Shown one piece after another: positions 28,381 to 51,544 of a stretch of DNA of 64,000 nt. The position numbers were made by a program, and so were the translations under genes. The stretch covers positions 5,186,501 to 5,250,500 of the forward strand of contig NZ_AP028672.1 of the NCBI RefSeq assembly GCF_041154505.1, given 5' to 3'. The first letter of the stretch is position 1; each line of letters begins with the position of its first letter. Source of the DNA: Acidovorax sp. A79 (lineage in GTDB: Bacteria; Pseudomonadota; Gammaproteobacteria; Burkholderiales; Burkholderiaceae_C). Under the pieces are notes generated by a model, which ran no database searches, was not told where the DNA came from, and saw only the letters and a program-made list of their open reading frames with translations.

Positions 28381-28456
28381 GGCCAGCAAGTTAGGCCTCG
28401 GCTGCGCGGCCCCTGCGGGGTGCGCGGCCTTGCTGCCCGCCCGGTGAAGGAAAAAC

Positions 28457-28975
28457 ATGACACAACAACATTCATCGCGCTCCAAGCCCTTGCAGACCCT
28501 GATAGGGGCGGGCCTGGTGGTGCTTGCGCTGTTTCTGGCCTGGGGTGCCAGCACGGTCAGCTCGGAGGCGGGCTACGGCGGCGTGGGCCCCAATTTCTTT
28601 CCCTGGGTGGTCAGCATCGCCTTGCTGATCTGCGGCGTGCTCTGCGTGGTGCATGCACTGACCGGGGGCTTTCGTGAGCTGGAAGAGGGCTCGGGCGACG
28701 AGCGCGCCCACTGGAAGGGTTTCATCTGGGTGTCGGCCGGGCTGCTGCTCAATGCCTTGCTCATCACGACGCTGGGCTTCATCCTGAGCTGCGCGCTGTG
28801 CTTCGTGCTGTCGGTGCGGGGCTTCAAGAGCTCGGAAGGCGAGCTGGACCTGCGCCTGCGGGCCTGGATCAAGGATTCCCTCATTGGCGTGGCCGTGGCC
28901 GCGCCGGTGTTCTGGATGTTTACGCAATTGCTGGCCATCAACCTGCCCGGCCTCACCAACACGGGGTGGCTGTAA
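28457..28975 (+). CDS. tctB: TctB, small membrane subunit of the tricarboxylate transporter
   Basis: 172 residues with four hydrophobic segments (about 15-35, 45-65, 95-125, 140-160). GYGGVGPNFFPWVVSIALL is the conserved TctB N-terminal pattern. It sits between tctC and tctA, 12 bp before tctA. Its function in the complex is structural and poorly defined, but it is needed for transport. Confidence 0.9.
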   Translation: MTQQHSSRSKPLQTLIGAGLVVLALFLAWGASTVSSEAGYGGVGPNFFPWVVSIALLICGVLCVVHALTGGFRELEEGSGDERAHWKGFIWVSAGLLLNALLITTLGFILSCALCFVLSVRGFKSSEGELDLRLRAWIKDSLIGVAVAAPVFWMFTQLLAINLPGLTNTGWL

Positions 28976-28987
28976 AGCCTGCACGCC

Positions 28988-30493
28988 ATGGAAACGTTGA
29001 ACCTCCTGATGCAGGGTTTTGCCACCGCTGCCACTCCCATCAACCTGATGTGGGCCTTCGTGGGCTGCATGATCGGCACCGCCGTGGGCGTGCTGCCCGG
29101 CATCGGGCCGGCCGTGGCGGTGGCCATGCTGCTGCCCATCACCGTGAAGGTCGAGGCCACGGCCTCCATGATCTTCTTCGCGGGCATCTATTACGGCGCC
29201 ATGTATGGCGGTTCCACCACGTCCATCCTGCTGAACACGCCCGGTGAGGCGGGCTCCATGGTCACCGCCATGGAGGGCAACAAGATGGCCAAGAACGGCC
29301 GTGCGGGCGCGGCGCTGGCGACCGCCGCCATCGGCTCGTTCGTGGCGGGCACCATCGCCACCGTGCTGGTCACGTTCTTTGCCCCCCTGGTGGCTGAATA
29401 CGCCGTGCGCCTGGGCCCGCCCGAGTACTTCATGCTGATGGTGCTGGCCTTCACCACCGTGAGCGCGGTGCTGGGCAAGAGCACGCTGCGCGGCATGGTG
29501 GCGCTGTTCGTCGGCCTGGCCATGGGCCTCATCGGCATCGACCAGATCTCGGGCCAGGCGCGCTACACCGGTGGCGTGCCCGAGCTGATGGACGGGATCG
29601 AGGTGGTGCTGATCGCCGTGGGCCTGTTTGCCGTGGGCGAGGCCTTGTACAACGTGATGTACGAAGGCAAGACCGACGAAACCCAGAACCGCCTGACCAG
29701 CACGCACATGACCAAGGAGGAGTGGAGGCGTTCGTGGCCCGCATGGATCCGCGCCACCTTCATCGGCTTTCCGTTCGGCACCGTGCCCGCGGGCGGCAGC
29801 GAGATCCCGACCTTCCTGAGCTACGCCGCTGAAAAGAAGCTGAGCAAGCACAAGGAAGAGTTCGGCACCACCGGCGCCATCGAAGGCGTGGCGGGCCCCG
29901 AGGCCGCCAACAACGCGGCCATCACGGCCACGCTGATCCCGCTGCTCACGCTGGGCATTCCCACGTCCAACACCACGGCCATCCTGCTGGGTGCGTTCCA
30001 GAACTACGGCATCCAGCCCGGCCCGCAGCTGTTCGACACCAATGGCGCGCTGGTGTGGGCACTGATCGCCTCCATGTACATCGGCAACGTGATGCTGCTC
30101 ATCCTGAACCTGCCGCTGGTGGGCCTGTGGGTGAAGCTGCTCAAGATTCCCAAGTCGTACCTGTACGCGGGCATCCTGGTGTTCTCCACGCTGGGCGTGT
30201 ACGGCATGCGCCAGAGCGCGTTCGATCTGGTGCTGCTGTATGCGATCGGCCTCTTGGGCGTGGTGATGCGCCGCTTCGACTTCCCGGCCGCTCCAGTGGT
30301 GGTGGGCATGATCCTGGGGCCTCTGGCAGAGGCGCAGATGCGCAACGCCGTGTCGATTGGCGAAGGCAAGTGGACGATCTTCCTGGAGCGCCCCGGTTCG
30401 CTGACGCTGATCGTCATCGTGCTGTCCGTGCTCATCGTGCCGCGCCTGCTGCGGCGCTGGGCGGCACGCAAGCTGGCGGCGCTGGAGCGCTGA
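28988..30493 (+). CDS. tctA: TctA, large membrane subunit of the tricarboxylate transporter
   Basis: 501 residues with about 11-12 hydrophobic segments. Conserved TctA blocks are seen: [38 protein letters not shown] with [10 protein letters not shown], and later [35 protein letters not shown] and [15 protein letters not shown]. It forms the ion-coupled translocation pore of the TTT system. It ends the operon and is followed by a strong terminator. Confidence 0.93.
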
Positions 30494-31494: not shown

Positions 31495-33006
31495 ATGCCC
31501 CTGCTCACCGACGACGCCCCCGCACTGCCGCTGGATGCCCAGGGCATTCTCGAACTGGCGGCGCGGTCCATGTTCCAGCTGTTTTCCAGCGTCAGCCAGG
31601 GCATGTTCCTGGTGGACCGCAGCGGGCGCATCGTGTGGGTCAACGAAGGCTACCAGCGCTTTCTGCCCGACCTGGGGTTCTCCTCGGTCGACCAGTTCGT
31701 GGGCCGCACGGTGGAAGAGGTGATCCCCAACACCCAGATGCGCCGCGTGCTGGAGACCGGCCAGCCCGTGCTGATCGACCTGCTCACCAACAAGGCGGGC
31801 ACCTTCGTGGTCAGCCGCATCCCGCTGCGCGACGATGCCGACCGCGTGATCGGCGCCATCGGCATCGTGCTGTTCGACCACCCCGAGACCACGCTGCAGC
31901 CGCTGATCAGCAAGTTCGCGCTGCTGCAGCGCGACCTGGACGACGCGCGGCGCGAACTGGCCAGCCAGCGCAGCCGCTCCCTGGCCGTGGCGGGCGACGG
32001 CGAGCGGCGCGCCAAGTACACCTTTGCCAGCTTCATTGGCTCCAGCCCTGCGGCGGCCGAGGTCAAGCGCCAGGCGCGGCGCGCGGCGCAGTCCAGCAGC
32101 CCCGTGTTGTTGCTGGGCGAGACGGGCACGGGCAAGGAGTTGCTGGCCCACGCCATTCATGCGGCATCGAGCCGCGCGAGCGGCCCGTTCGTGAGCGTCA
32201 ACATTGCCGCCGTGCCCGACACATTGCTGGAGGCCGAGTTCTTTGGCGTGGCCCCCGGGGCCTACACCGGTGCCGACCGCAAGGGGCGCGACGGCAAGTT
32301 CAAGCTGGCCGACGGCGGCACGCTGTTCCTCGACGAAATCGGCGACATGCCGCAAAGCCTGCAGGCCAAGCTGCTGCGGGCCCTGCAAGAGGGCGAGATC
32401 GAGCCGCTGGGCTCCAATAAGCTCGTGCCCTTCAACGTGCGCATCCTGGCCGCCACGTCGCGCGACCTGGCCGCGCTGGTGCGCGAAGGCAAGTTCCGCG
32501 AGGACCTGTTCTACCGCCTGCACGTGCTGCCCGTGCGCGTGCCGCCGCTGCGCGTGCGGCGCACCGACATCCCGGCCCTGGTGGAGGCGCTGGGTGAAGA
32601 CCTGGCGCTGCGCAACAGCACGGCCCCGCCCGAGCTGCTGCCCGATGCCATGGCGCTGCTGGCGGGCCAGCCCTGGCGCGGCAACATCCGCGAACTGCGC
32701 AACGTGCTGGAGCAGGCCGTGATGCGCAGCGACTCGCCGTCCATCGACGCCGCCCAGCTCGAGCGTGTCCTGCGCGAGGCCGGCGTGGAGCCGGCCGCTC
32801 CCGCGCCGGTGCTGGACACGGCTTCCATGGCCGATGCCCAGGACGAAAGCCGCTACCTGCGTCCGCTGGCCGAGCAGGTGGCCGAGCTGGAGCGGCGCGC
32901 CATCGCGGCGACCCTGAAAGCCCATGGCGGCAACAAGCTCGCCACCGCACGGCAACTGGGCATCTCGCGGGCCACGCTGTATGGACGTCTGGAAAACCCT
33001 GAATAA
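31495..33006 (+). CDS. PAS-containing sigma-54-dependent transcriptional activator
   Basis: 503 residues from ATG 31495. An N-terminal PAS sensory region (about 25-135, with VDRSGRIVWVNEGYQRFLP) precedes the AAA+ domain: Walker A GETGTGKELLAHAI (about 208), the sigma-54-contact loop GAYTGAD, Walker [14 protein letters not shown], and RxxL-type arginine fingers in [21 protein letters not shown] Fis-type helix-turn-helix ends the protein (NKLATARQLGISRATLYGRL). It immediately precedes a 26-bp palindrome and a -24/-12 promoter driving the polyester gene cluster, so it is the probable activator of that cluster. The PAS domain may bind a short-chain hydroxy acid; no ligand can be read from sequence. 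Confidence 0.92.
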   Translation: MPLLTDDAPALPLDAQGILELAARSMFQLFSSVSQGMFLVDRSGRIVWVNEGYQRFLPDLGFSSVDQFVGRTVEEVIPNTQMRRVLETGQPVLIDLLTNKAGTFVVSRIPLRDDADRVIGAIGIVLFDHPETTLQPLISKFALLQRDLDDARRELASQRSRSLAVAGDGERRAKYTFASFIGSSPAAAEVKRQARRAAQSSSPVLLLGETGTGKELLAHAIHAASSRASGPFVSVNIAAVPDTLLEAEFFGVAPGAYTGADRKGRDGKFKLADGGTLFLDEIGDMPQSLQAKLLRALQEGEIEPLGSNKLVPFNVRILAATSRDLAALVREGKFREDLFYRLHVLPVRVPPLRVRRTDIPALVEALGEDLALRNSTAPPELLPDAMALLAGQPWRGNIRELRNVLEQAVMRSDSPSIDAAQLERVLREAGVEPAAPAPVLDTASMADAQDESRYLRPLAEQVAELERRAIAATLKAHGGNKLATARQLGISRATLYGRLENPE

Positions 33007-33030
33007 ATATCAGACATATGTCTGATATTT
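33005..33030. promoter_or_regulatory. 26-bp perfect palindrome, probable enhancer site (UAS)
   Basis: Perfect dyad with core ATCAGACATATGTCTGAT and AAAT/ATTT outer arms, overlapping the stop codon of the sigma-54 activator. A degenerate second copy, ATCAGAC-TATGTC, lies at 33,052-33,064. The palindrome centre is about 95 bp upstream of the -24/-12 promoter at 33,111, a suitable distance for an enhancer-binding protein. Confidence 0.75.
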
Positions 33031-33110
33031 CTACAATTGGATTGTTCAAAAATCAGACTATGTCCCGCAGGCGTCAGCAGGGTTTTTATACAAATCAACA
33101 GCTTGCATGC

Positions 33111-33128
33111 TGGCATGAACTGTGCAAT
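33111..33128 (+). promoter_or_regulatory. Sigma-54 (-24/-12) promoter of the polyester cluster
   Basis: TGGCATGAACTGTGCAAT matches TGGCAC-N5-TTGCA with the obligatory GG and GC pairs separated by exactly 10 bases. It lies 31 bp before the ATG of the first binding-protein gene, downstream of a sigma-54 activator gene and its likely palindromic binding site. Confidence 0.72.
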
Positions 33129-33158
33129 GTTCAGGCATCACAACAAGGAGACATCGCC

Positions 33159-34352
33159 ATGCATCGTCGCACCCTGGTCGCCCTGGCCACCGCTGCCGTC
33201 ACCGCCGCCACGCTTTCCACCCCCGCTTTCGGCCAGGCCGGGGAAATCCGCATCGCCCACATCTACAGCAAGACCGGCCCGCTGGAAGCCTATGGCAAGC
33301 AGACCCAGACCGGCCTGCTGATGGGCCTGAACTACGCCACCGGCGGCAGCATGACCGTCAATGGCAAGAGGCTCGTCGTGATTGAAAAGGACGACCAGGG
33401 CAAGCCTGACCTGGGCAAGAGCCTGCTGGCCTCGGCCTATTCGGACGACAAGGCCGACATCGCCGTCGGCCCCACGTCCTCGGGCGTGGCCCTGGCGCTG
33501 CTGCCCGTGGCCGAGGAATACAAGAAGATCCTGCTGGTGGAGCCCGCCGTGGCCGACGCCATCACCGGCGACAAGTGGAACAAGTACATCTTCCGCACCG
33601 GCCGCAACAGCAGCCAGGATGCCATCTCCAACGCCGTGGCCGTCGACAAGGCCGGCGTCACGGTGGCCACGCTGGCGCAGGACTATGCCTTCGGCCGCGA
33701 CGGCGTGAAGGCCTTCAAGGACGCGCTCAAGAACGCCAAGCTCGTGCACGAGGAGTACCTGCCCACGACCACCACCGACTTCACTGCCGGTGCCCAGCGC
33801 CTGATCGACAAGCTCAAGGACGTGCCCGGCCGCAAGGTCATCTTCATCATCTGGGCCGGCGCGGGCAACCCCTTCAAGATCGCCGACATGGACTTGAAGC
33901 GCTACAACATCGAGATCGCCACGGGCGGCAACATCCTGCCCGCCATGGCCGCGTACAAGAACTTCCCTGGCATGGAAGGCGCCACGTACTACTACTTCGG
34001 CATCCCCAAGAACCCCGTGAACGAAGCCATGGTGGCCGCGCACTACAAGGAGTTCAAGACCCCGCCGGACTTCTTCACCGCCGGCGGCTTCAGCTCCGCC
34101 ATGGCGCTGGTCACGGCCCTCAAGGCCACGAACGGCGACACCAACACCAACAAGCTCATCAAGACCATGGAGGGCATGAGCTTCGAGACCCCCAAGGGCA
34201 AGATGACCTTCCGTAAGGAAGACCACCAGGCCATGCAGAGCATGTACCACTTCAAGATCAAGGTGGACCCGGCCTTCGCCTGGGGCGTGCCCGAGCTGGT
34301 GCGCGAGATCAAGCCTGAAGAAATGAACGTGCCGATCCGCAACAAGCGATAG
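33159..34352 (+). CDS. LIV-type (class I) ABC transporter binding protein
   Basis: 397 residues from ATG 33159, preceded by AAGGAGACATCG. Signal peptide with cleavage after FGQA. The mature start GEIRIAHIYSKTGPLEAYGKQ is typical of Leu/Ile/Val-family receptors, followed by VNGKRLVVIEKDDQGKPD, VGPTSSGVALALLPV and FKDALKNAKLVHEEY. It is the first gene after the sigma-54 promoter and its cluster contains a PHB depolymerase and an LIV-type permease set, so its ligand is likely a hydroxy acid or short ester rather than an amino acid. Periplasmic. A second receptor gene of the cluster is at 42,310. Confidence 0.9.
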   Translation: MHRRTLVALATAAVTAATLSTPAFGQAGEIRIAHIYSKTGPLEAYGKQTQTGLLMGLNYATGGSMTVNGKRLVVIEKDDQGKPDLGKSLLASAYSDDKADIAVGPTSSGVALALLPVAEEYKKILLVEPAVADAITGDKWNKYIFRTGRNSSQDAISNAVAVDKAGVTVATLAQDYAFGRDGVKAFKDALKNAKLVHEEYLPTTTTDFTAGAQRLIDKLKDVPGRKVIFIIWAGAGNPFKIADMDLKRYNIEIATGGNILPAMAAYKNFPGMEGATYYYFGIPKNPVNEAMVAAHYKEFKTPPDFFTAGGFSSAMALVTALKATNGDTNTNKLIKTMEGMSFETPKGKMTFRKEDHQAMQSMYHFKIKVDPAFAWGVPELVREIKPEEMNVPIRNKR

Positions 34353-34527
34353 GCCGGTTTTTTCGATGCGTTAGCGAGGCCCGACGGACAGGACAACCAT
34401 CCTGCTCCTTCGGGGTTCATCCCGCAGGGGCGGCCGCCCCTCTTTTTCCAGTGAATTGATGCATGAACCCCCGGATCACACGGGGGCAGGGTCGGTTTTT
34501 CTCAAAATTATTTGGAGACAAGACAAC

Positions 34528-36000
34528 ATGGCTTTCAATTTCATCCGGGCGGCTGCAGCAGGGGCTGTAATTTCAATGTGCGCAGCGGGCGGCGCGATGG
34601 CCGCCGTCAACCTGCCCGCGCTCAAGATCGACAAGACCCAGACCACCGTGTCGGGCCTGTCGGCTGGCGGCTTCATGGCCGTGCAGCTGCACGTGGCGTA
34701 TTCGGCCACGTTTGCCAAAGGGGTGGGCGTGGTCGCGGGCGGGCCGTTCTATTGCGCCGAGGGCTCGGTCGTCAATGCCACGGGGCGCTGCATGGCCAGC
34801 CCGGCGGGCATTCCCACCAGCACGCTGGTCAGCACCACCAACACCTGGGCCAGCCAAGGCGCCATCGACCCCGTGGCCAATCTCCAGAACTCGAAGGTCT
34901 ACCTGTTCTCGGGCACGCTCGACAGTGCGGTCAAGACCGGCGTGATGGATGCCCTGCGCACCTACTACAACAGCTTCGTGCCGGCCGCCAACGTGGTCTA
35001 CAAGAAGGACATCGCGGCCGAGCACGCCATGGTCACCGACGACTACGGCAACGGCTGCACCACCAAGGCCGCGCCCTACATCAGCAACTGCAACTTCGAC
35101 CTGGCCGGTGCCATGCTGCAGCACCTGTACGGCCCGCTCAATGCACGCAACAACGCGGCGCTGCCCACCGGCAACTTCATCGAGTTCAACCAGAGCGAAT
35201 TCATCTCCAACCACGGCATGGCCGCCACGGGCTGGGCCTATGTGCCGCAGGCCTGCCAGGCGGGCGGCAGCACCACCTGCAAGCTGCATGTGGTGCTGCA
35301 TGGCTGCAAGCAGAACATCAGCGATGTGCAGCAGCAGTACGTGCGCAACACCGGCTACAACCGCTGGGCCGACACCAACAACATGGTGATGCTGTACCCA
35401 CAGACCAGCACGGCCGCCACCAACAGCTGCTTTGACTGGTGGGGCTACGACAACGCCAACTACGCCAAGAAGTCCGGTCCGCAGATGGCGGCCATCAAGG
35501 CCATGGTGGACCGGGTCTCCAGCGGCGGCACCACCAACCCGCCGGTGGACCTGCCTGCCCCCACGGGCGTGAGCACCTCGGGCGCCACCGCCAGCAGCAT
35601 GGCGATTGCCTGGAATGCCGTCTCGGGCGCTGCCAGCTACAACGTGTACCGCAACGCCAACAAGGTCAACGCGCTGCCCGTGACCGCCACGAACTACAGC
35701 GACACCGGCCTGGCCGCTTCCACCACCTACAGCTGGACCGTGCGTGCCGCCGATGCCAACGGCGCCGAAGGCGCCGTGTCCGCCGCGGCATCCGGCACCA
35801 CGCTGGCGGCGCCGGGTGGCGGCACGGGCACCTGCACCACGGCCAGCAACTATGCGCACACCCTCGCGGGCCGGGCGTACGCCTATGCGGGCTTCGCGTA
35901 TGCCCTGGGCTCCAACCAGGGCATGGGCTGGTGGAACGTGTTCGTGACCACCACGCTCAAGCAGACCAGCCCCGGGTACTACGTGATCGGTACCTGCTGA
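34528..36000 (+). CDS. Extracellular poly(3-hydroxybutyrate) depolymerase with Fn3 and C-terminal binding region
   Basis: 490 residues; ATG 34528 follows TTGGAGACAAGACAAC. Order: signal peptide (1-24), catalytic esterase domain (about 25-335), fibronectin type III linker (about 345-445), and a C-terminal domain (about 450-490), probably for polymer binding. The lipase box is VSGLSAGGFMAVQLH with Ser45 as nucleophile. LHVVLHGCKQN is the oxyanion-hole segment and FDWWGYDNANYAKKSG holds late conserved residues. The nucleophile close to the N-terminus is normal for type 2 catalytic domains of PHB depolymerases. It would cut extracellular PHB into 3-hydroxybutyrate oligomers, which the oligomer hydrolase (40,071) cleaves further. 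Confidence 0.88.
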   Translation: MAFNFIRAAAAGAVISMCAAGGAMAAVNLPALKIDKTQTTVSGLSAGGFMAVQLHVAYSATFAKGVGVVAGGPFYCAEGSVVNATGRCMASPAGIPTSTLVSTTNTWASQGAIDPVANLQNSKVYLFSGTLDSAVKTGVMDALRTYYNSFVPAANVVYKKDIAAEHAMVTDDYGNGCTTKAAPYISNCNFDLAGAMLQHLYGPLNARNNAALPTGNFIEFNQSEFISNHGMAATGWAYVPQACQAGGSTTCKLHVVLHGCKQNISDVQQQYVRNTGYNRWADTNNMVMLYPQTSTAATNSCFDWWGYDNANYAKKSGPQMAAIKAMVDRVSSGGTTNPPVDLPAPTGVSTSGATASSMAIAWNAVSGAASYNVYRNANKVNALPVTATNYSDTGLAASTTYSWTVRAADANGAEGAVSAAASGTTLAAPGGGTGTCTTASNYAHTLAGRAYAYAGFAYALGSNQGMGWWNVFVTTTLKQTSPGYYVIGTC

Positions 36001-36008
36001 AGCATGTA

Positions 36009-36161
36009 CAACCCCGTGAGCCGCTTCGCGTCTTCCCCCTTCTCTCGGATGGCTGCGCCATTCGGGAAGGGGAGGCGCCAGCGCACGCAGGAGAAACGCC
36101 GCTGTGCAGCTTGGGCGGCCCTTGCGCGGCGATTGCTGGTTTCGCCCGCGCCAGTTGCGGA
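36009..36161. repeat. Intergenic repeat, copy A
   Basis: A stretch with CTTCCCCCTTCTCTCG, CGGGAAGGG, GGGCGGCCCTTGCGCGGCG and GCGCCAGTTG in fixed order. The same blocks recur at 51,325-51,450. It contains no gene. It fills most of the 270-bp gap before the first ABC ATPase gene. Confidence 0.6.
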
Positions 36162-36270
36162 GACTGTTTGGCGATGAAAACGCAGTGCAGGTCTTGGCAT
36201 CCCGCCGCAGGGCTGGGTTGCCGGGCTCTTTGAATGAAATGACGACGACCGTGAAAGTGAAACACCACCC

Positions 36271-37044
36271 ATGAGCACCTTGGCCACCAAGGACTTGACC
36301 ATCCGCTTCGGCGGCCACGTGGCGGTCAACGCCGTGACCTGCTCCTTCGAGCCCGGCACGCTGACCGCCATCGTGGGCCCCAACGGTGCGGGCAAGACCA
36401 CGTACTTCAACCTCATCTCGGGGCAGCTGCGCGCCACGGCGGGCAGCGTCACGCTGGGCGGGCAGGACCTCACGGGCCAGTCGGTCTCGGCGCGCACGCA
36501 TGCGGGCCTGGGCCGGGCGTTTCAGCTCACCAACCTGTTCCCGAACCTCAGCGTGCTGGAGAACGTGCGCCTGGCCGTGCAGGCCACGCAGGAGGGCAAG
36601 CACCGCCGGGGCCTGAACCTGTGGAGCATCTGGAGCGACCACCGCGCGCTGACCGAACGGGCGCTGGCCATCCTGCACACGGTGGCCATGCACGAGCGCC
36701 GCGACACCCCTGTGGCCAGCCTGCCGCACGGCGACCAGCGCAAGCTCGAAGTGGCGCTGCTCATGGCGCTGGAGCCGCAGGTCTACATGTTCGACGAGCC
36801 CACGGCCGGCATGAGCCACGACGAGGCGCCCGTGATCCTGAACCTGATCCGCGAGCTGAAAAAAGACAAGACCAAGATCATCCTGCTGGTGGAGCACAAG
36901 ATGGACGTGGTGCGCGAGCTGGCCGACCGCATCATCGTGCTGACCAACGGCACGCTGGTGGCCGACGGCCCGCCGGCAGAAGTGATCGCCTCGCCCGTGG
37001 TGCAAGAGGCCTACCTGGGCGTGACGAAGGAGGCGGCAGCATGA
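36271..37044 (+). CDS. LIV-type ABC transporter ATPase (LivG-like)
   Basis: 257 residues. Walker A GPNGAGKTTYFNLISG is near residue 36, the Q-loop region LGRAFQLTNLFPNLSV follows, the signature is a degenerate LPHGDQRKLEVAL, and Walker B is VYMFDEPTAGMSH. C-terminal VTNGT-like elements are those of LivG proteins. It energises import of the ligand delivered by the cluster's binding proteins. Its stop overlaps the next ATPase gene by ATGA. Confidence 0.92.
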   Translation: MSTLATKDLTIRFGGHVAVNAVTCSFEPGTLTAIVGPNGAGKTTYFNLISGQLRATAGSVTLGGQDLTGQSVSARTHAGLGRAFQLTNLFPNLSVLENVRLAVQATQEGKHRRGLNLWSIWSDHRALTERALAILHTVAMHERRDTPVASLPHGDQRKLEVALLMALEPQVYMFDEPTAGMSHDEAPVILNLIRELKKDKTKIILLVEHKMDVVRELADRIIVLTNGTLVADGPPAEVIASPVVQEAYLGVTKEAAA

Positions 37045-37787
37045 CCACCACCACCAACAACAATACCGGCAACCTGCTCGAACTCAAGGGCGTGCACACC
37101 CACATCGGCGCGTACCACATCCTGCACGGCGTCGACCTGGCCGTGCCCAAGGGCCAGCTCACCATGCTGCTGGGCCGCAACGGCGCGGGCAAGACGACCA
37201 CGCTGCGCACCATCATGGGCCTGTGGCATGCGTCCCAGGGCTCGGTCCACTTCGGGGGCAAGGACATCACGGCGCTGAACACACCGCAGATCGCGGGCAT
37301 GAACATCGCCTACGTGCCCGAGAACATGGGCATCTTCGCGGACCTGACCGTGAAGGAAAACATGCTGCTGGCCGCGCGCGGCGCCAAGAACGCGGCGCAG
37401 ATGGACACGGCACGGCTCGAATGGATCTTCAAGCTCTTCCCGGCCGTGGAGAAATTCTGGAACCACCCGGCCGGCAAGCTCAGCGGCGGGCAAAAGCAGA
37501 TGGTGGCCGTGAGCCGCGCCATCGTCGAGCCGCGCGACCTGCTCATCGTGGACGAGCCGAGCAAGGGCCTCGCCCCCGCCATCATCAACAACATGATCGA
37601 GGCGTTCGACCAGCTCAAGAAGAGCGGCGTGACCATCCTGCTGGTGGAGCAGAACATCAACTTCGCGAAGCGGCTCGGCGACACCGTGGCCGTGATGGAC
37701 AACGGCCAGGTGGTGCATGCGGGCAGCATGGCCGCGCTGGCGCAGGACGAGGCACTGCAGCGGTCGCTGCTGGGGTTGGCACTATGA
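37041..37787 (+). CDS. LIV-type ABC transporter ATPase (LivF-like)
   Basis: 248 residues from the ATG overlapping the previous stop. Walker A GRNGAGKTTTLRTIMG, signature LSGGQKQMVAVSRAI, Walker B LLIVDEPSKGLAP, switch His region ILLVEQNINFAKRLG. It pairs with the LivG-like ATPase. A 115-bp gap with a REP-like repeat separates it from the permease genes. Confidence 0.92.
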   Translation: MTTTTNNNTGNLLELKGVHTHIGAYHILHGVDLAVPKGQLTMLLGRNGAGKTTTLRTIMGLWHASQGSVHFGGKDITALNTPQIAGMNIAYVPENMGIFADLTVKENMLLAARGAKNAAQMDTARLEWIFKLFPAVEKFWNHPAGKLSGGQKQMVAVSRAIVEPRDLLIVDEPSKGLAPAIINNMIEAFDQLKKSGVTILLVEQNINFAKRLGDTVAVMDNGQVVHAGSMAALAQDEALQRSLLGLAL

Positions 37788-37791
37788 ATTC

Positions 37792-37880
37792 CACAAAAAA
37801 TTTCAAGCTATTTTGGCCTCTGGCGCTGGATGGCAAGGCGCCGAAAGCTATTAAAAATATAGCATTCAAGCGCGTGGCGC
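37792..37880. repeat. REP-like repeat between ATPase and permease genes
   Basis: TTTCAAGCTATTTTGGCCTC...GGCGCCGAAAGCTATTAAAAATATAGCATTCAAGCGC. AAGCTATT/ATAGC elements and TTCAAGC repeats give hairpin potential. It is AT-rich against the GC-rich genes and is related to copies at 31,375 and 60,474. It sits inside an operon and may tune expression of the permeases relative to the ATPases. Confidence 0.55.
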
Positions 37881-37902
37881 TTGCCACGCAAGGAGACCGG
37901 GC

Positions 37903-38889
37903 ATGAGCATCACCCGCGACTTCGACTGGAAGCCCCTGGCCCTGGTGCCCGCGCTGGCACTGCTGGTGCTGCCCTTCATCGGCTCGCCCAGCACCTGGCT
38001 CACGCTCACGGTGGCGGGGCTGGCCATGGGCATGATCGTGTTCATCATCGCCTCGGGCCTCACGCTGGTGTTCGGCCTCATGGACGTGCTCAACTTTGGC
38101 CACGGCGTGTTCATCGCGCTGGGCGCCTTCGTGGCCACCAGCGTGCTGGGCACCATGGGCGACTGGACGCAAAGCGCCGAGCTGTGGCGCAACCTGCTGG
38201 CCGTGCTGCCCGCCATGCTGGTGGCCATGGCCGTGGCGGGCGCGGTGGGCCTGGCGTTCGAGCGTTTCATCGTGCGGCCCGTGTACGGCCAGCACCTCAA
38301 GCAGATCCTCATCACCATGGGCGGCATGATCATTGGTGAAGAACTCATCAAGGTCATCTGGGGCCCCGCGCAGATCCCGCTGCCGCTGCCCGAGGGCATG
38401 CGTGGCTCGCTGCTCATTGGCGATGCTGCCATCGAGAAATACCGCCTGGTGGCCGTGGCTGTGGGGCTGCTGGTGTTCGCCGTGCTGGCCTGGACGCTGT
38501 CGCGCACCAAGGTCGGCCTGCTCATCCGCGCCGGCGTGCAGGACCGCGAGATGGTCGAGAGCCTGGGCTACCGCATCCGCCGCCTGTTCATCGGCGTGTT
38601 CGTCGTGGGTTCGGCCCTGGCGGGCCTGGGTGGCGTGATGTGGGGCCTGTACCAGCAGAACGTGGTGCCGCAGATGGGCGCGCAGGTCAACGTGCTGATC
38701 TTCATCGTGATCATCATCGGCGGCCTCGGGTCCACGGGCGGCGCCCTCATCGGCGCGCTGCTGGTGGGGCTCATGGCCAACTACACCGGCTTCCTGGTGC
38801 CCAAGGTGGCGCTGTTCTCCAACATCGCGCTGATGGTGGCCATTCTGCTGTGGCGCCCGCAGGGTGTGTACCCGGTCGCGAACCGTTGA
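37903..38889 (+). CDS. LIV-type ABC transporter permease (LivH-like)
   Basis: 328 residues, ATG preceded by AAGGAGACCGGGC. About eight hydrophobic segments. Family motifs are FGLMDVLNFGHGVFIALGAF and GLGGVMWGLYQQ, with the C-terminal block VIIIGGLGSTGGALIGALLVG. It forms half of the translocation pore. It is somewhat longer than E. coli LivH, with an N-terminal extension of hydrophobic residues. Confidence 0.92.
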   Translation: MSITRDFDWKPLALVPALALLVLPFIGSPSTWLTLTVAGLAMGMIVFIIASGLTLVFGLMDVLNFGHGVFIALGAFVATSVLGTMGDWTQSAELWRNLLAVLPAMLVAMAVAGAVGLAFERFIVRPVYGQHLKQILITMGGMIIGEELIKVIWGPAQIPLPLPEGMRGSLLIGDAAIEKYRLVAVAVGLLVFAVLAWTLSRTKVGLLIRAGVQDREMVESLGYRIRRLFIGVFVVGSALAGLGGVMWGLYQQNVVPQMGAQVNVLIFIVIIIGGLGSTGGALIGALLVGLMANYTGFLVPKVALFSNIALMVAILLWRPQGVYPVANR

Positions 38890-38905
38890 AGAGGAGTCCC
38901 AAGAC

Positions 38906-39979
38906 ATGCTGAACCGACTTCTTTCCAACGACTACCCGCGCAGCAAGGTGCTCGCGGTGATCCTGGTGGCCATCCTCATCGGGCTGGCGTTTGCACCCTT
39001 CCTGTTCCCGGGCGTCAAGGCGCTGTCGGTGGCAGCCAAGGTGCTGATCTTCGTGGTGCTGGTGGCCAGCTTCGATCTGCTGCTGGGCTACACCGGCATC
39101 GTGAGCTTCGCGCACACCATGTTCTTCGGCATCGGGGCCTACGGCATCGCGGTGGCCACCACCCGCCTGGGGCCGACCTGGACGGCGCTGGGCGTGGGCA
39201 TTGACGGCGCGCTGCTGCTGTCGCTGCTGCTGTCGCTGGCAGTGGGCTTGTTCTCGCTGCGCGTGCGCGCCATCTTCTTCGCGATGATCACGCTGGCCGT
39301 TGCCGCGGCGTTCCAGACGCTGGCCTCGCAGCTGTCGGACATCACCGGCGGCGAAGACGGCCTGACCTTCAAGGTGCCCGAGATCCTGTCGCCCAGTTTC
39401 GAGCCCTTTGAAGAGCCCTTCCTGGGCGTGGCCATCGACGGCCGCCTGATCTGCTACTACCTGCTGTTCGTCGCGGCGCTGGCGCTGGTGCTGGCGCTGC
39501 TGCGCATCGTCAATTCACCGTTCGGCCGCGTGCTGCAGGCCATCCGCGAGAACGAGTTCCGCGCCGAGGCCATCGGCTACCGCGTGGTGGTGTACCGCAC
39601 CACGTCGAGCGTGCTGTCGGCGCTGTTCGCCACCATGGCGGGCGCGATGCTCGCGCTCTGGCTGCGCTACAACGGACCCGACACCTCGCTCAGCTTCGAA
39701 ATCATGATGGACTGCCTGCTCATCGTGGTGATCGGCGGCATGGGCACCATCTACGGATCGGCCATCGGCGCCGTGCTCTTCCTGGTGGCGCAAAGCTACC
39801 TGCAGGACCTGCTGCGCCTGGGGCACGAGGCCACCTCGGGCCTGCCCTGGCTGTCTGCGCTGCTCTCGCCGGACCGCTGGCTGCTGTGGCTGGGCGTGCT
39901 GTTCGTTCTGTCGGTGTATTACTTCCCTACCGGTGTGGTGGGGCGCCTGCGCGCGGCAGCTGCGCGCAAGGCGGGGTAG
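38906..39979 (+). CDS. LIV-type ABC transporter permease (LivM-like)
   Basis: 357 residues from ATG 38906, behind GAGGAG. About ten hydrophobic segments. LivM motifs are FDLLLGYTGIVSFAHTMFFG, LRVRAIFFAMITLAVA, AIRENEFRAEAIGY and IGGMGTIYGSAIGA. It completes the membrane pore with the LivH-like protein. The co-directional oligomer hydrolase gene starts 91 bp further on. Confidence 0.92.
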   Translation: MLNRLLSNDYPRSKVLAVILVAILIGLAFAPFLFPGVKALSVAAKVLIFVVLVASFDLLLGYTGIVSFAHTMFFGIGAYGIAVATTRLGPTWTALGVGIDGALLLSLLLSLAVGLFSLRVRAIFFAMITLAVAAAFQTLASQLSDITGGEDGLTFKVPEILSPSFEPFEEPFLGVAIDGRLICYYLLFVAALALVLALLRIVNSPFGRVLQAIRENEFRAEAIGYRVVVYRTTSSVLSALFATMAGAMLALWLRYNGPDTSLSFEIMMDCLLIVVIGGMGTIYGSAIGAVLFLVAQSYLQDLLRLGHEATSGLPWLSALLSPDRWLLWLGVLFVLSVYYFPTGVVGRLRAAAARKAG

Positions 39980-40070
39980 GCGGCCCCTTCCCGCACGCGG
40001 GCTGGTGCGGAAGGGGCATGGGTCAGCTGTGCAAGAAGCAACGCGAAGAAAAATACCAGGAGACAAGCAC

Positions 40071-42209
40071 ATGATGAGCATGAAGACAGGGTTTCGTCCG
40101 TTCGTTCCCGCCGCGGTGGCAGCCGCCGTTCTCGCCGCCTGTGGCGGTGGGGATGGCGAGCAAGTCCCCCTCAATGCAAAGCCCGCATACCTGGGCGCCA
40201 TTGCCGAGACTGCCTATGACGGCAGCAGCAACGACCTGTTGACCGCGGGCCTCGGTGCCACCGGCATGGCGGCGGCGCTGCCGCCCGCCTATGCCGACCC
40301 GCTCAAGCCCACCGCCGCCGAGTTGCGCCGCACGGCCATCCACACCAACTACCGCGCCATGCTCGACATGACGGCCGCGGGTGGCTACGGCCTGCTGTAC
40401 GGCCCCAACGTGGACGCGCAGGGCAAGGTCACGGCGGGCGAGGGCAAGGTGGCGGGCACCGAGTACATCGCGTTCGCCGACGACGGCACGGGCCGCAAGA
40501 ATGTCACCCTGATGGTGCAGGTGCCTGCGAGCTTCGATCCCAGGAAGCCCTGCATGATCACCGCGACCACGTCGGGCTCGCGCGGCGTGTATGGCGGCAT
40601 CTCCACGGGCGAGTGGGGCCTCAAGCGCGGCTGCGCCGTGGCGTATTCGGACAAGGGCACGGGCGGTGCGCCGCACGACCTGCAGAACGACACCGTGCCG
40701 CTCATCGACGGCACCCGGACCACCGCCACCGCGGCGGGCAAGGATGCGGCCTTCAATGCCGGGCTCACGGCATCGGAGCTCGCGGCCTTCAACAAGGCCA
40801 CCCCCGACCGCTTCGCCTTCAAGCATGCCCATTCAGGCCAGAACGCCGAGAAGGACTGGGGCACCACGACGCTGCAGGCGGTGGAGTTCGGCTACTACGT
40901 CCTCAACCAGCGCCACGGCGAGACCAACGCGGCCGGCCAGCGCCTGAAGACGCTCACGCCCCGCAACACCATCGTGATTGCGTCCAGCATTTCCAACGGT
41001 GGCGGCGCTGCGATCGCCGCCGCCGAGCAGGACACGCAGGGCCTGATCAGCGGTGTGGCCGTGTCCGAGCCCGCGCTGGAGCTGCCCGCCAACCCTGGCG
41101 TCACGGTGCGCCGTGGCAGCACCGAGGTGGCGGTCACGGGCAAGACGCTGGTGGACTTCACCACCTACGCCAACCTGTACCAGGCCTGTGCATCGCTGGC
41201 GCCGTCGGTCAGCGCCAGCCCCTTCGCCGCGGCGTTCGCGGCCGGGTTTGCCAGCGCGGCGCTGCCCATCGCGCCCAACCGCTGCGCGGCGCTCAAGACG
41301 GCGGGGCTGCTGTCGGCCTCCACCACCGCAGCGCAGGCCGAAGAGGCGCTGCAAAAGCTGCGCGCCTATGGCTGGGAGCCCGAGTCGAACGACCTGCATG
41401 CCTCGCTGGCCGCGTTCGAAGTGGCCCCGGCCGTGGCGGTGACCTTTGCCAACAGCCTGTCGCGCAGCAGCGTGAAGGACCACCTGTGCGGCTTCAGCTA
41501 CGCGGCCACGGCGACCACGGGCGCGGTGGTGCCCCTGGCGGCCGCAGCGTTGCCGGGCATGTTCGCCACCGGCAACGGCGTGCCGCCTTCCGGTGGCATC
41601 AACCTCGTGAACAACCTGGGCAAGCTGGGCCCGGCGCGCGACTTCCTGTCGTTCTCGGACGCGGGCGTGGCCGACTGGAACACGGCGGGCGCGCTATGCC
41701 TGCGCAACCTGGTCACCGGCACCGACGCAGCGGCCAGGAAACTGCAGGCCGGCGTGGATGAAACCCGCCGCAACGGCAACCTGCGGGGCAAGCCCGCCGT
41801 CATCGTGCACGGCCGGGCCGATGCGCTGCTGCCCGTGAGCCACACCTCGCGCCCCTATGCCGCGTTGAACAAGAAGATCGAGGGCGCAGCCAGCCGGCTC
41901 AGCTATGTGGAAGTGGCCAACGCCCAGCATTTCGACAGTTTCATCGGCCTGCCCACGGTGCTGCCGGGCTACGACACGCGCTACGTACCGCTGCACGTGT
42001 ACCTGAACCACGCGCTCGATGCCGTGTACGAGCACCTGGCCAATGGCAAGGCCTTGCCCGCCAGCCAGGTGGTGCGCACCGTGCCCCGGGGCGGCACACC
42101 CGGCAGCGCGCCGGCCATCACTGCCGTCAACGTGCCGCCACTGGCCACCGTGCCCGCTGCGGCCAATGCCATTGCCATTGCGGCAGGCGCCATCTCCATC
42201 CCCGACTGA
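40071..42209 (+). CDS. D-(-)-3-hydroxybutyrate oligomer hydrolase
   Basis: 712 residues from ATG 40071, behind CAGGAGACAAGC. A lipoprotein-type signal is visible (hydrophobic core, then LAAC at about 22-25), so it is probably anchored or exported. The nucleophile Ser308 lies in ASSISNGGGAAIAAAEQD, the SxSNGG motif of this family. AVIVHGRADALLPVSHTSRPY near the C-terminus holds the Asp, and ANAQHFDSFIGLP holds the His. The enzyme (EC 3.1.1.22 type) cleaves dimers and oligomers of 3-hydroxybutyrate to monomer. Together with the PHB depolymerase upstream and the ABC importer between them, it completes an extracellular or periplasmic polyester breakdown route. Confidence 0.85.
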   Translation: MMSMKTGFRPFVPAAVAAAVLAACGGGDGEQVPLNAKPAYLGAIAETAYDGSSNDLLTAGLGATGMAAALPPAYADPLKPTAAELRRTAIHTNYRAMLDMTAAGGYGLLYGPNVDAQGKVTAGEGKVAGTEYIAFADDGTGRKNVTLMVQVPASFDPRKPCMITATTSGSRGVYGGISTGEWGLKRGCAVAYSDKGTGGAPHDLQNDTVPLIDGTRTTATAAGKDAAFNAGLTASELAAFNKATPDRFAFKHAHSGQNAEKDWGTTTLQAVEFGYYVLNQRHGETNAAGQRLKTLTPRNTIVIASSISNGGGAAIAAAEQDTQGLISGVAVSEPALELPANPGVTVRRGSTEVAVTGKTLVDFTTYANLYQACASLAPSVSASPFAAAFAAGFASAALPIAPNRCAALKTAGLLSASTTAAQAEEALQKLRAYGWEPESNDLHASLAAFEVAPAVAVTFANSLSRSSVKDHLCGFSYAATATTGAVVPLAAAALPGMFATGNGVPPSGGINLVNNLGKLGPARDFLSFSDAGVADWNTAGALCLRNLVTGTDAAARKLQAGVDETRRNGNLRGKPAVIVHGRADALLPVSHTSRPYAALNKKIEGAASRLSYVEVANAQHFDSFIGLPTVLPGYDTRYVPLHVYLNHALDAVYEHLANGKALPASQVVRTVPRGGTPGSAPAITAVNVPPLATVPAAANAIAIAAGAISIPD

Positions 42210-42309
42210 CGCGGGCCCCCGGCTGGCGAAAGAGGGAATCACCCCGTGTGCCGCGCCCGCGGTGGGCGTGGCGCCGGGGCCATGTGTTTCTGGCGCAAAG
42301 GATGGATGT

Positions 42310-43476
42310 ATGAACGCTGTGATGAAGACCTGGGGCCGCCGCATGGCGTCGGCGCTGGCGGTGCCCGTTGTGCTGGCCCTTGGCGCCGCTGGCGGCACCG
42401 CGCCCGCGCGTGCCGCCGAGATCGTGGTGGGGCAGGTGGCGCCCTTGTCGGGCGTGCTGGCCAGCACCGGCGCGCAGATGGTGCTGGGCGGCAAGATCTA
42501 CTTCGACTGGATCAACGCCCAGGGCGGCGTGCATGGCGCCTCCATCCGCCAGGCGGTGGTAGACGATGCCTACAAGGTGGACGACACCGTGAAGCTGACC
42601 CGCGAGATGCTGGCCAGGCCCGAGGTGGTGGCGCTGTACGGTTTCGCGGGCACGGCCAACATCACCCAGCTGCTGGCCGACGGCGTGCTGGAGCAGGGCG
42701 GCGCCGCGCTGGTGGCGCCCTACACGGGGGGCGAATCCCTGCGCAACCCTTTCAACCCGTGGATCTTCCATGTGCGCGCCGGGTATGCGGACGAGACTGA
42801 ACACATGGTCCAGCAGCTCACCACGCTGGGCATGAACCGCGTGGCCGTGATGTACCAGGACGACGGTTTTGGCAAGGCGGGCCTGGCGGGCGTGGAGGCG
42901 GCGCTGGCCAAGCGCAACCTCAAGCTCGTGGTGGCGGCTGGCTATGAACGCAACACCGACAAGGTGGACGATGCCGTGAAGGCCATCAAGGCGGCCGACG
43001 TGCATGCCGTCATCATGATCGCCGTCAACAAGCCCGCGGCCGCGTTCATCCAGCGCTACCGCGAGCAGGGCGGCGGCGCGCAGCTGTACAACATCTCCGT
43101 GGTGGACCCGACCGAACTGGTCAAGCTGGCGGGCCTGAAAAACGCCCACGGCCTGGGCATCAGCCAGGTGGTGCCGTACCCCTACCGGCCTCAGCTGCCG
43201 GTGGTGCGCGAGTACCAGTCGCTGCTCAAGAAATACGCACCCGATGCCGAGGTCAACTACACCAGCTTCGAGCAGTTCCTGGGCGCCAAGGTACTGGTCG
43301 AAGCCCTGCGCCGCGCCGGGCCCCTGCCCACGCGCACCAAGGTCGTCAAGGCGCTGGAGTCGATGCAGAGCTATGACCTGGGCGGCATCACGCTGGGCTA
43401 TTCGCCCACCAACCGCATCGGCTCGCGCTATGTCGAGGTCACCGTCATTGGCAGCAATGGCCGCCTCATGAAGTAG
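42310..43476 (+). CDS. Second LIV-type ABC transporter binding protein
   Basis: 388 residues from ATG 42310 (an ATG at 42322 is possible). Signal peptide with cleavage near ARAAE. The mature start EIVVGQVAPLSGVLASTGAQ is a class I receptor motif, followed by FDWINAQGGVHGASI and YGFAGTANITQLL. Its sequence differs clearly from the receptor at 33,159, so the transporter probably has two ligands, for example different hydroxy acids or oligomers. It lies 100 bp after the oligomer hydrolase in the same orientation. Confidence 0.88.
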   Translation: MNAVMKTWGRRMASALAVPVVLALGAAGGTAPARAAEIVVGQVAPLSGVLASTGAQMVLGGKIYFDWINAQGGVHGASIRQAVVDDAYKVDDTVKLTREMLARPEVVALYGFAGTANITQLLADGVLEQGGAALVAPYTGGESLRNPFNPWIFHVRAGYADETEHMVQQLTTLGMNRVAVMYQDDGFGKAGLAGVEAALAKRNLKLVVAAGYERNTDKVDDAVKAIKAADVHAVIMIAVNKPAAAFIQRYREQGGGAQLYNISVVDPTELVKLAGLKNAHGLGISQVVPYPYRPQLPVVREYQSLLKKYAPDAEVNYTSFEQFLGAKVLVEALRRAGPLPTRTKVVKALESMQSYDLGGITLGYSPTNRIGSRYVEVTVIGSNGRLMK

Positions 43477-43522
43477 CCGGCCGCCACCTGTTTTCCATCT
43501 GTTGTTCCCAAAGGTTGCCACC

Positions 43523-44389
43523 ATGTCCCCCATCTCGCGCTACGCCACTTGCGCCGGCTATGAAATCCACTACATGGAGTGGGGTGCGCGCGATGCCCCC
43601 GTGGTGGTGGCATGGCATGGCTTGGCGCGCACCGGGCGCGACATGGACGAACTCGCCGCGCACCTCGCCCCGCGCTACCGCGTGATCTGCCCCGACACCA
43701 TCGGCCGGGGCCTGAGCCAGTGGGCGCGGGCGCCGCAGGACGAGTACCGCCTGTCGTTCTACGCGCGCATCGCGGCCGGCCTGTTCGACCAGCTGGGCAT
43801 CGAGAAGGCGCACTGGGTGGGCACGTCGATGGGTGGAGCGATCGGCACGGTGTGCGCATCGGGCCTGTTCCAGCCGCAGTTCAAGGAGCGCATCGCCAGC
43901 CTGCTGCTCAACGACAACGCGCCCCGCCTGGCGGATGCCGCGCTCGAGCGCATCAAGGCCTATGCGGGCCACCCGCCCTCGTTTGACACCGTGATGGAGT
44001 TGGAAGCCTTCTTCCGGCAGGTGTACCAGCCCTACGGCTGGCTCAGCGATGCGCAGTGGCGCCGCCTGACCGAGACCTCGACCCGGCGCCTGCCCGACGG
44101 CCGCGTGACGCCGCACTACGACCCGGCCATGGTGCAGCAGTTCACGCACCACACCAACGACTATCTGATCTGGGACCACTACGACGCGCTGGAGATCCCC
44201 GTGCTGTGCCTGCGCGGTGCGGAATCCGACCTGGTGCTGCGCGAGACCACCGCCGAGATGCTCACGCGGGGCCCCGGCGCGCGCGGGCTGGCGCAGGTAG
44301 TGGAGGTGCCCGGCTGCGGCCATGCACCCGCGCTCAATGTGCCGGCGCATTACGCGCTGGTAGACGGGTTTCTGGCACGCGCATCCTGA
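43523..44389 (+). CDS. Alpha/beta hydrolase
   Basis: 288 residues from ATG 43523. HGLARTGRDMDELAAHL contains the HG oxyanion motif, HWVGTSMGGAIGTVCA holds the nucleophile Ser, and VPGCGHAPALNVPAH the His; the acid is probably in RGAESDLVL. No signal peptide, so cytoplasmic. As last gene of the polyester cluster it may hydrolyse imported esters or oligomers to free hydroxy acids. The esterase substrate cannot be read directly. Confidence 0.85.
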   Translation: MSPISRYATCAGYEIHYMEWGARDAPVVVAWHGLARTGRDMDELAAHLAPRYRVICPDTIGRGLSQWARAPQDEYRLSFYARIAAGLFDQLGIEKAHWVGTSMGGAIGTVCASGLFQPQFKERIASLLLNDNAPRLADAALERIKAYAGHPPSFDTVMELEAFFRQVYQPYGWLSDAQWRRLTETSTRRLPDGRVTPHYDPAMVQQFTHHTNDYLIWDHYDALEIPVLCLRGAESDLVLRETTAEMLTRGPGARGLAQVVEVPGCGHAPALNVPAHYALVDGFLARAS

Positions 44390-49561: not shown

Positions 49562-49587
49562 GGGTTCTCCGGCAGTCATCAAAAATG

Positions 49588-49620
49588 GATCAGAAAGTGA
49601 TCATTTGAGCAATTGGCAAG
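49588..49620. promoter_or_regulatory. XylR/DmpR-like upstream activating sequences
   Basis: TTGAGCAATTGGCAAG (49605-49620) matches the XylR/DmpR enhancer TTGATCAATTGATCAA at most positions. Next to it GATCA-GAAAG-TGATC (49588-49602) is a perfect inverted repeat. The sites lie about 145-170 bp upstream of the -24/-12 promoter, a normal enhancer distance, and close to the regulator start, so autoregulation is possible. Confidence 0.65.
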
Positions 49621-49762
49621 CGGCCATTTGTTTATGAATGGTAACTATTTGGTGGCAAAAAGTCCCCCATGCCAGCCGTCTTTCAGCCTAGGGAAAGTCC
49701 GTAGCGTCCCCTCTCAAAAAAGCCTCGTCGAGCGTGTTCAACGGCGTTGGGGCGCGTGGGGC

Positions 49763-49780
49763 TGGTACGCCCGTTGCAAT
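49763..49780 (+). promoter_or_regulatory. Sigma-54 (-24/-12) promoter of the aromatic-type cluster
   Basis: TGGTACGCCCGTTGCAAT matches TGGCACG-N4-TTGCA, with GG and GC exactly 10 bases apart. It is 60 bp before the first gene of the cluster and on the correct side of the XylR-like UAS. Confidence 0.8.
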
Positions 49781-49839
49781 TTGAGGTCACACCGCCGCGG
49801 CAATGCGGTGGGTTTTGATTTCAACCAAGGAGCAATGCA

Positions 49840-51315: not shown

Positions 51316-51324
51316 CAGCGACAA

Positions 51325-51450: not shown

Positions 51451-51544
51451 AGGTTGGCTGCATGTCTTAGGGCCAGAGCACGCGAATAGCCCAGGTCTCC
51501 ACGGACAAGGGCTCCCATCGACACAAATTAAGGAGACAACTTTC

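Follow-up and report, generated by a model that had tools for sequence, protein, structure and literature searches.

A predicted sigma-54-dependent locus of Acidovorax sp. A79 for use of 3-hydroxybutyrate polymer and oligomers, with a LIV-type importer

We analyzed a 64-kb stretch of the 5.87-Mb genome of Acidovorax sp. A79 (the window), in which ten genes, all on the + strand, fill positions 31495–44389. They encode a sigma-54 activator (REG), two LIV-type receptors (SBP1 and SBP2), a depolymerase of poly(3-hydroxybutyrate) (PHB) (PHAZ), two ATPases and two permeases of the LIV type (LivG, LivF, LivH and LivM; together LivGFHM), a 3-hydroxybutyrate (3HB)-oligomer hydrolase (OH) and an alpha/beta hydrolase (ABH). 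Comparison with related loci (numbered L where they must be told apart) suggests that this is probably an operon for the use of 3HB polymer and oligomers, with a LIV-type importer for the products. The most likely substrate of the importer is 3HB or its short oligomers, because OH and PHAZ genes are concentrated at the locus, OH genes of two clades appear to have been recruited to it, and a 3HB dehydrogenase or CoA-transferase gene stands in some of the gene runs. A preliminary description of this DNA had named the regulator, a 26-bp palindrome, a −24/−12 promoter and nine same-strand genes, and Pfam and profile scores and coordinates confirmed all of these parts. Its proposal that the importer is dedicated to hydroxybutyrate, its oligomers or a related polyester monomer gained support from the same comparisons as far as a link to 3HB and PHB metabolism is concerned.

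With the thresholds used, the genome contains one depolymerase and one oligomer hydrolase, both at this locus. PHAZ scored 407 bits against NF050059 (cut-off 280), contains an fn3 linker and, by eye, starts with a signal peptide. OH scored 1048 bits against PF10605 (cut-off 27) over positions 2–688 of 688, and its N-terminus looks, by eye, like a lipoprotein signal; cleavage of 3HB oligomers is the function predicted from its family. We then sampled the family of the host (150 genomes, 141 genera), where SBP1 was present in 83 genomes, OH in 43 and a type-2 depolymerase in 34. In this sample, 26 of the 46 OH genes shared the strand of SBP1 and were at most 8 kb away from it, when compared to ∼0.2% expected from uniform placement, and 21 of the 35 depolymerase genes lay within 2 kb of SBP1. 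Co-occurrence of SBP1 and OH in the same genome gave p = 0.001 with kinship ignored. Among the 83 genomes with SBP1, the locus carried both hydrolases in 13, OH alone in 13, PHAZ alone in 8 and neither in 49. None of the LIV query proteins had a match in 13 further regions of the order that carry a type-2 depolymerase (L208 and L211–L222).

The hydrolase genes come and go along the importer lineage. On a quick LivGFHM tree (100 of 106 loci; 93 scored for OH and 98 for PHAZ), OH changed state 9 times and PHAZ 8 times. A tree of the OH proteins held 25 in-locus rows, with L227 excluded as a 24%-identity match. The OH of a metagenome-assembled genome of Delftia acidovorans (L088) and that of L157 fell in a clade separate from the other 23 in-locus rows, yet they occupy the slot between livM and ABH that OH has in other loci. 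Because their clade differs while the position is the same, we read them as a second recruitment of the same predicted function to the same transporter. Judged by these comparisons, PHAZ and OH are add-on cassettes, yet drawn to the locus. In two Ramlibacter loci (L048:16486–18294 and L050:4909–6756) a frame of 602–615 codons lies between livM and ABH, the slot used by OH elsewhere.

To define the gene content, the ten window proteins were mapped onto the 80 best named SBP1 loci, of which 61 were used (the rest lie too near a contig end) and 77 served for the promoter. LivG, LivF, LivH, LivM and ABH were each present in all 61 complete loci, REG in 57, PHAZ in 32, OH in 21 and SBP2 in 11; all seven core genes (activator, LIV-type importer and ABH) were found together in 57. 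PHAZ and OH were both present in 12, PHAZ alone in 20, OH alone in 9 and neither in 20. The closest named relatives are loci of Acidovorax species, with 83–98% protein identity across the ten genes (L020–L027). The standing unit in the family is thus, by gene content, activator plus importer plus cytoplasmic hydrolase, and we claim it for the family and not for the whole clade, because REG and ABH are often absent outside. The preliminary description had named homologous loci that lack the hydrolases as grounds for refutation. Such loci are frequent in both samples (49 of 83 family loci and 20 of the 61 complete named loci), and the extracellular hydrolases do not define the system. Within the family ABH is a core member and no tail gene; it accompanies the importer in every complete locus.

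Inspection by eye showed no signal peptide in ABH. The presumed catalytic triad of this protein (S102, D236 and H267) was invariant in 76 sequences (the window and 75 of the 106 loci; short, split or missing copies were dropped). The structure model was confident (pLDDT 91), and a fold search with it gave as best matches 4ose (a putative hydrolase) and 3bwx (an uncharacterised alpha/beta hydrolase), followed by a thioesterase domain, amide- and enol-lactone hydrolases and haloalkane dehalogenases; the resemblance to enol-lactonase models was weak. Since ABH is as constant as the importer within the family, esters, that is oligomers, may enter the cell, and this constancy is the main argument for their import.

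The importer has the composition of a LIV/HAAT-type ABC system: a Peripla_BP_6 receptor, two BPD_transp_2 permeases and two ABC ATPases. All components scored far below the curated cut-offs of the Liv models (LivG 185.5 vs. 362, LivF 189 vs. 441, LivH 71 vs. 379, LivM 84 vs. 366 and receptor 64 vs. 477 bits) and of the urea-transport models (UrtD 200 vs. 304, UrtE 215 vs. 286, UrtB 160 vs. 250 and UrtC 115 vs. 296 bits). In a remote alignment with E. coli LivJ and LivK, SBP1 has a gap at LivJ glutamate 226, which we take to be the acidic residue that binds the amino group of the ligand, and SBP2 has a serine there. The relatives of SBP1 share its gap, and SBP1 and these relatives retain the serine at LivJ position 79 but have valine (or leucine) in place of threonine 102; a part for these two positions in ligand binding is likewise presumed. 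An amino-acid importer was rejected on the Liv scores and the missing glutamate 226 of SBP1, and a urea importer on the Urt scores. The match of SBP1 to PDB 3n0x covers residues 27–397 (E = 1.6e-175), and 3nnd is also close. The molecule names of both entries state no ligand or function, and a literature search with both codes and with a locus tag returned no relevant paper; the receptor in both is presumably from R. palustris. The SBP1 clade comprises at least 8000 database candidates, all of those scored being at E ≤ 1e-60, and their source names, where given, say substrate-binding protein or, often, branched-chain amino acid transport. An SBP2 homologue (61% identity) adjoins a PHB depolymerase in another family (L183). 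Tandem SBP1 pairs occur in L028, L029, L033, L034 and L046, with 78–82% and 89–95% identity to the SBP1 of the window, and each copy is preceded by a −24/−12-like element.

REG has the features of a sigma-54 enhancer-binding protein, namely a Sigma54_activat domain, a Fis-type helix-turn-helix and a GAFTGA-like loop. A single PAS domain (residues 30–125) precedes the AAA+ domain, and the loop reads GAYTGA by eye. HbcR of Pseudomonas (PA2005) is described as an enhancer-binding protein for RpoN whose PAS domain spans residues 17–123 (PMC8694187), and its activation by (R)-3HB has been reported (PMC10482368). REG and the published description of HbcR agree in plan and neighbor genes, which points to 3HB as the likely effector of REG. 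The preliminary description had assumed sigma-54 control of the nitrogen type. Its sigma-54 part is borne out by the activator and the promoter, but the nitrogen type was set aside, because REG homologues neighbor 3HB genes and nothing at the locus points to NtrC; control looks to be of the carbon-substrate type, like that by the (R)-3HB-responsive HbcR.

A −24/−12 element lies upstream of SBP1 and is one of two sites in the window with at least 12 of the 13 consensus letters. Between 30.5 and 45 kb there was no second element of equal quality, and a site one letter poorer lies inside the livH coding sequence. The element is kept in the relatives: of 77 related loci, 72 have one with ≥11 of 13 letters ahead of SBP1. 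At this threshold a site occurred in 12 of 1540 sequences made by Markov shuffling, and in 0 of the 221 stretches that precede LivG, LivM and ABH in these loci. Of the five loci under the threshold, two (L058 and L088) also lack REG.

The 26-bp palindrome is the longest perfect palindrome in the window, the next being 18 bp, and at the same position L051 has a longer one of 42 bp upstream of SBP1. Most relatives have imperfect, often repeated TCAGRCA..TGTCTGA-like dyads at the operator position, a pattern of which the palindrome of the window is a perfect form, and some show no clear dyad. The best imperfect-dyad score averaged 6.3 in 84 upstream stretches vs. 4.9 (standard deviation 1.1) in 1680 shuffles, and scores ≥9 were reached by 9 of the 84 stretches and 8 of the 1680 shuffles; the dyads are thus significant as a set, with many single loci lacking a clear one. 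The central 16-mer of the palindrome occurs once in the genome, and 16-mer matches with ≤3 mismatches were no commoner there than those of a reversed control, giving no sign of further operator sites in the genome.

Contexts outside the family add genes of 3HB metabolism. A plasmid of Mariluticola halotolerans, an alphaproteobacterium, carries in this order genes for a sigma-54 regulator (47% identity), a 3HB dehydrogenase, SBP1 (64%), LivGFHM and an alpha/beta hydrolase (54%). A REG-type activator is accompanied by a 3HB dehydrogenase in the same gene run in L232, and at ∼2 kb on the other strand in L204 and L230; the window has no such pair. In a genus of another class (g242; SBP1 67–68% identical), four of the five importer loci (L160–L164) have REG upstream of SBP1. 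In two of the five, L160 and L162, REG and SBP1 are separated by a CoA-transferase gene of the same strand, whose product is 61% identical to the CoA-transferase encoded in L203 together with a REG homologue and TRAP genes. A class-wide search of 274 genomes gave four REG matches outside the family, in three genomes. REG homologues with TRAP genes were seen in L203 (with the CoA-transferase), L204 (its 3HB dehydrogenase scoring above the curated cut-off) and L205 (with an acyl-CoA synthetase and a BktB-like thiolase some kb away), and in L206 a REG homologue has an acyl-CoA synthetase on the other strand. OH also has a REG homologue as its direct neighbor in L180 and L182 and less than 5 kb away in L185 and L187 (families f23, f22 and f33), and L158 (family f32) has the order SBP1, LivGFHM, acyl-CoA synthetase, OH.

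In L171, a frame directly after livM matches the 3HB dehydrogenase of Mariluticola with 43% identity; it has no family-model score and was not used as evidence. In L160 the importer is followed by a gene for a GGDEF-EAL protein with PAS/Cache domains, in L161 a gene for a GGDEF-EAL protein precedes REG, and frames similar in length to these two genes occur in L162–L164.

A second LIV family also meets these enzymes. The order in L183 is LivG, LivF, receptor, LivH, LivM, OH, porin, PHAZ and SBP2 homologue, and in L187 acyl-CoA synthetase, LivG, LivF, receptor, LivH, LivM and OH. Their LivGFHM proteins are 29–40% identical to those of the window and 67–78% identical to each other, receptor included. 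Sets of this second family stand beside REG in Azospirillum (L228) and L240, ∼4 kb from REG in L241 and one gene apart from it in L248. Both importer kinds lie side by side in Hoeflea (L236, divergent) and in L054 (tandem). Most of the second family probably has other jobs, because within the stretch examined only 3 of 20 further receptor loci have REG and none has OH.

Taken together, these comparisons suggest the following route. (R)-3HB or a close derivative would bind the PAS domain of REG, an effector proposed by analogy with HbcR, and REG bound to the dyad operator would drive sigma-54 RNA polymerase at the −24/−12 promoter, as the sequences of activator and promoter predict. PHAZ would cut extracellular PHB, and the lipoprotein-like OH would shorten the PHAZ products. 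SBP1, and perhaps SBP2, would then capture 3HB or short oligomers, which LivGFHM would carry inward, and cytoplasmic ABH would cleave imported short oligomers or related esters. The last step would be 3HB dehydrogenase or acyl-CoA activation, encoded elsewhere in this genome and beside the importer in some relatives.

Several observations weigh against such a route. In the family, neither extracellular hydrolase is present at 49 of the 83 SBP1 loci. SBP1 is missing from 10 of the 43 OH genomes and 10 of the 34 PHAZ genomes, OH lies away from SBP1 in 7 more genomes and PHAZ in 3 more, and the co-occurrence of SBP1 and PHAZ is weakly correlated (p = 0.05, kinship again ignored). PF10605 members occur in quite different settings, some beside TTT-receptor or citrate-symporter genes. 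REG is missing from 4 of the 61 complete loci, the closest solved relatives of ABH have other or unassigned functions (generic hydrolases), and the 3HB dehydrogenase of the host lies ∼0.2 Mb away (C1:5446290). The core also loosens outside the family. Of the 21 SBP1 loci examined there (L158, L160–L173 and L232–L237; L168 has the receptor alone), 5 have REG upstream on the strand of SBP1 (L160, L161, L162, L164 and L232), and an ABH homologue is present in 4 (L165, L170, L172 with 36% identity and on the other side, and L232). Five others (L166 and L233–L236) have an alpha/beta hydrolase of another kind, and Haematobacter (L237) has a crotonase in the place of ABH. In four alphaproteobacterial loci, genes for an enoyl-CoA hydratase, an AMP ligase and MaoC lie near the importer; because of these neighbors, the acid imported there may differ from 3HB.

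Such observations could be accounted for if the importer served wider or other short hydroxy- or oxo-acids (lactate, acetoacetate, hydroxyvalerate or branched hydroxy acids), with the PHB enzymes as opportunistic guests and 3HB as one of several substrates. The many family loci without PHB enzymes, the enoyl-CoA hydratase, MaoC and AMP ligase genes near alphaproteobacterial importers, and the loss of core partners outside the family all speak for it. A LIV-type D-lactate importer reportedly exists in Phaeobacter, and a literature search on a locus tag for it gave no paper. The 3HB dehydrogenase within the Mariluticola gene run, the HbcR-like plan and neighbors of REG and the double recruitment of OH point away from it, and we consider this explanation unlikely. 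Far less credible is an ordinary amino-acid LIV system with PHB genes adjacent by chance. Permease genes of the LIV/ribose family are indeed abundant (50 in this genome), and the source names of relatives often say branched-chain amino acid transport. Chance adjacency, however, does not fit the gathering of more than half of the OH and PHAZ genes of the family sample (26 of 46 and 21 of 35) at one locus type or the dedicated, conserved promoter, and amino-acid transport fits poorly with the scores of permeases, ATPases and receptor, which fall far short of the curated cut-offs for Liv and Urt, and with the absent LivJ glutamate.

Within the reading of a 3HB polymer and oligomer operon, the form in which the ligand arrives divides opinion more evenly. 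If the ligand were strictly the monomer, hydrolysis would be finished outside and ABH would act on, for example, a lactone or thioester. In favor of this form, a lipoprotein-like OH, with its signal judged by eye, would already release monomer ahead of uptake; REG homologues that have no visible ABC importer have TRAP genes as neighbors; ABH bears a weak likeness to enol-lactonase models; and outside the family there are importers that lack ABH. This narrower form, whose probability overlaps with that of the operon reading, has close to an even chance in our judgment. Against it, ABH would be needless if monomer alone entered, yet in the family it is as constant as the importer (61 of 61), and it is kept in Mariluticola beside a 3HB dehydrogenase. 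A bolder extension of the operon reading is that this is a polyester-utilisation locus on the plan of polysaccharide utilisation, in which the ABC importer takes intact 3HB oligomers (dimer and trimer) that a dedicated cytoplasmic oligomer hydrolase cleaves. In the same extension, the LIV clade whose beta- and alphaproteobacterial members now carry the name of branched-chain amino acid importers imports hydroxyalkanoates or their short esters, and the second LIV clade partly has the same role. We hold this extension tentatively, and would sooner expect it to fail than to stand in full.

Table 1. Positions of the ten genes and two control elements in the window, with the matches on which each assignment is based.
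Feature	Position	Strand	Basis
REG, sigma-54 enhancer-binding activator with PAS sensor domain	31495..33006	+	Pfam PAS_4, Sigma54_activat (222 bits), AAA_lid_14, HTH_8
Perfect palindrome, 26 bp, probable activator binding site (upstream activating sequence)	33005..33030		predicted
−24/−12 sigma-54 promoter element CTGGCATGAACTGTGCA	33110..33126	+	12/13 consensus letters
SBP1, periplasmic receptor, LIV/HAAT type	33159..34352	+	Peripla_BP_6 184 bits; PDB 3n0x E = 1.6e-175
PHAZ, short-chain polyhydroxyalkanoate (PHB) depolymerase, type-2 catalytic domain and fn3	34528..36000	+	NF050059; PDB 2d80 E = 3e-65
LivG-type ATPase	36271..37044	+	ABC_tran and BCA_ABC_TP_C
LivF-type ATPase	37041..37787	+	ABC_tran
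LivH-type permease	37903..38889	+	BPD_transp_2 122 bits
LivM-type permease	38906..39979	+	BPD_transp_2 122 bits
OH, 3-hydroxybutyrate-oligomer hydrolase	40071..42209	+	PF10605 1048 bits, whole model
SBP2, second LIV-type receptor	42310..43476	+	Peripla_BP_6 178 bits; PDB 3lop E = 1e-79
ABH, alpha/beta hydrolase	43523..44389	+	Abhydrolase_1/6

The genes downstream of REG likely form one operon by their arrangement (Table 1); the widest intergenic gaps after SBP1 are ∼175 bp ahead of PHAZ and ∼270 bp ahead of livG. A tripartite tricarboxylate transporter (TTT) system (TctC, TctA and a small TctB-like frame) occupies window positions 27421–30493 and ends ∼1 kb upstream of REG, and TctA-like genes are present in the retrieved stretch of 33 of the 80 related loci. 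On the other side, positions 47636–60482 hold another locus of like design, with an XylR/V4R-type sigma-54 activator (47636–49582, − strand), a −24/−12-like site at 49762 (+ strand) and genes, partly assigned by eye, for an aldehyde dehydrogenase, an SDR protein, an Abhydrolase_3 esterase, two LIV-type receptors, an outer-membrane-like protein and LivG, LivF, LivH and LivM. It probably serves aromatic or aldehyde catabolism. PF10605-type genes were also seen on Microvirga and Pseudomonas luteola plasmids (L224, L225 and L226), after LysR, AtuA-family and TTT-receptor or citrate-symporter genes, and their products possibly act on another ester substrate.

Each part of the locus has a known counterpart. 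HbcR-controlled 3HB catabolism of Pseudomonas shares with it an RpoN-dependent activator, one PAS domain and carbon-substrate control; its partner importer, we assume, is a GntP-type permease and not an ABC system, and it presumably includes no extracellular depolymerase. The LIV/HAAT importers (E. coli LivJ/LivK-LivHMGF and the urea system Urt) have the same receptor family, two permeases, two ATPases and the same Pfam families, whereas the window proteins fall below their curated cut-offs and lack the glutamate of the amino-group site. PHAZ and OH are members of NF050059 and PF10605 above cut-off, like the known PHB depolymerases and 3HB-oligomer hydrolases, but here their genes are embedded in an importer operon. 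Polysaccharide utilisation loci unite a sensor, a secreted depolymerase, an oligomer-cleaving enzyme, an importer and a cytoplasmic hydrolase in one regulon, with import through SusCD or TonB. The locus shares this plan, with a polyester instead of a polysaccharide and a LIV-type ABC importer instead of SusCD/TonB.

PHB-cutting extracellular enzymes have been described; we know of no dedicated ABC importer for their products. The preliminary description had likewise known of no established one, and this agrees with our literature search, in which the mostly open-access texts and openings of abstracts described no ABC importer for 3HB or PHB fragments. The available parts of PMC6296734 and PMC12146267 mention none, and a table in the former names a D-beta-hydroxybutyrate permease, bhbP (PP3074), of Pseudomonas putida.

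These data suggest that (i) the parts are known, and their combination, its control and the proposed role of the LIV clade appear new; and (ii) a widespread transporter clade, with SBP1 in 83 of the 150 family genomes, has a predicted role other than amino-acid transport. PHB is a polyester that is common in nature and is sold as a bioplastic, and for its use the locus supplies named, removable genes: a receptor, permeases, a sensor and a putative cytoplasmic oligomer hydrolase.

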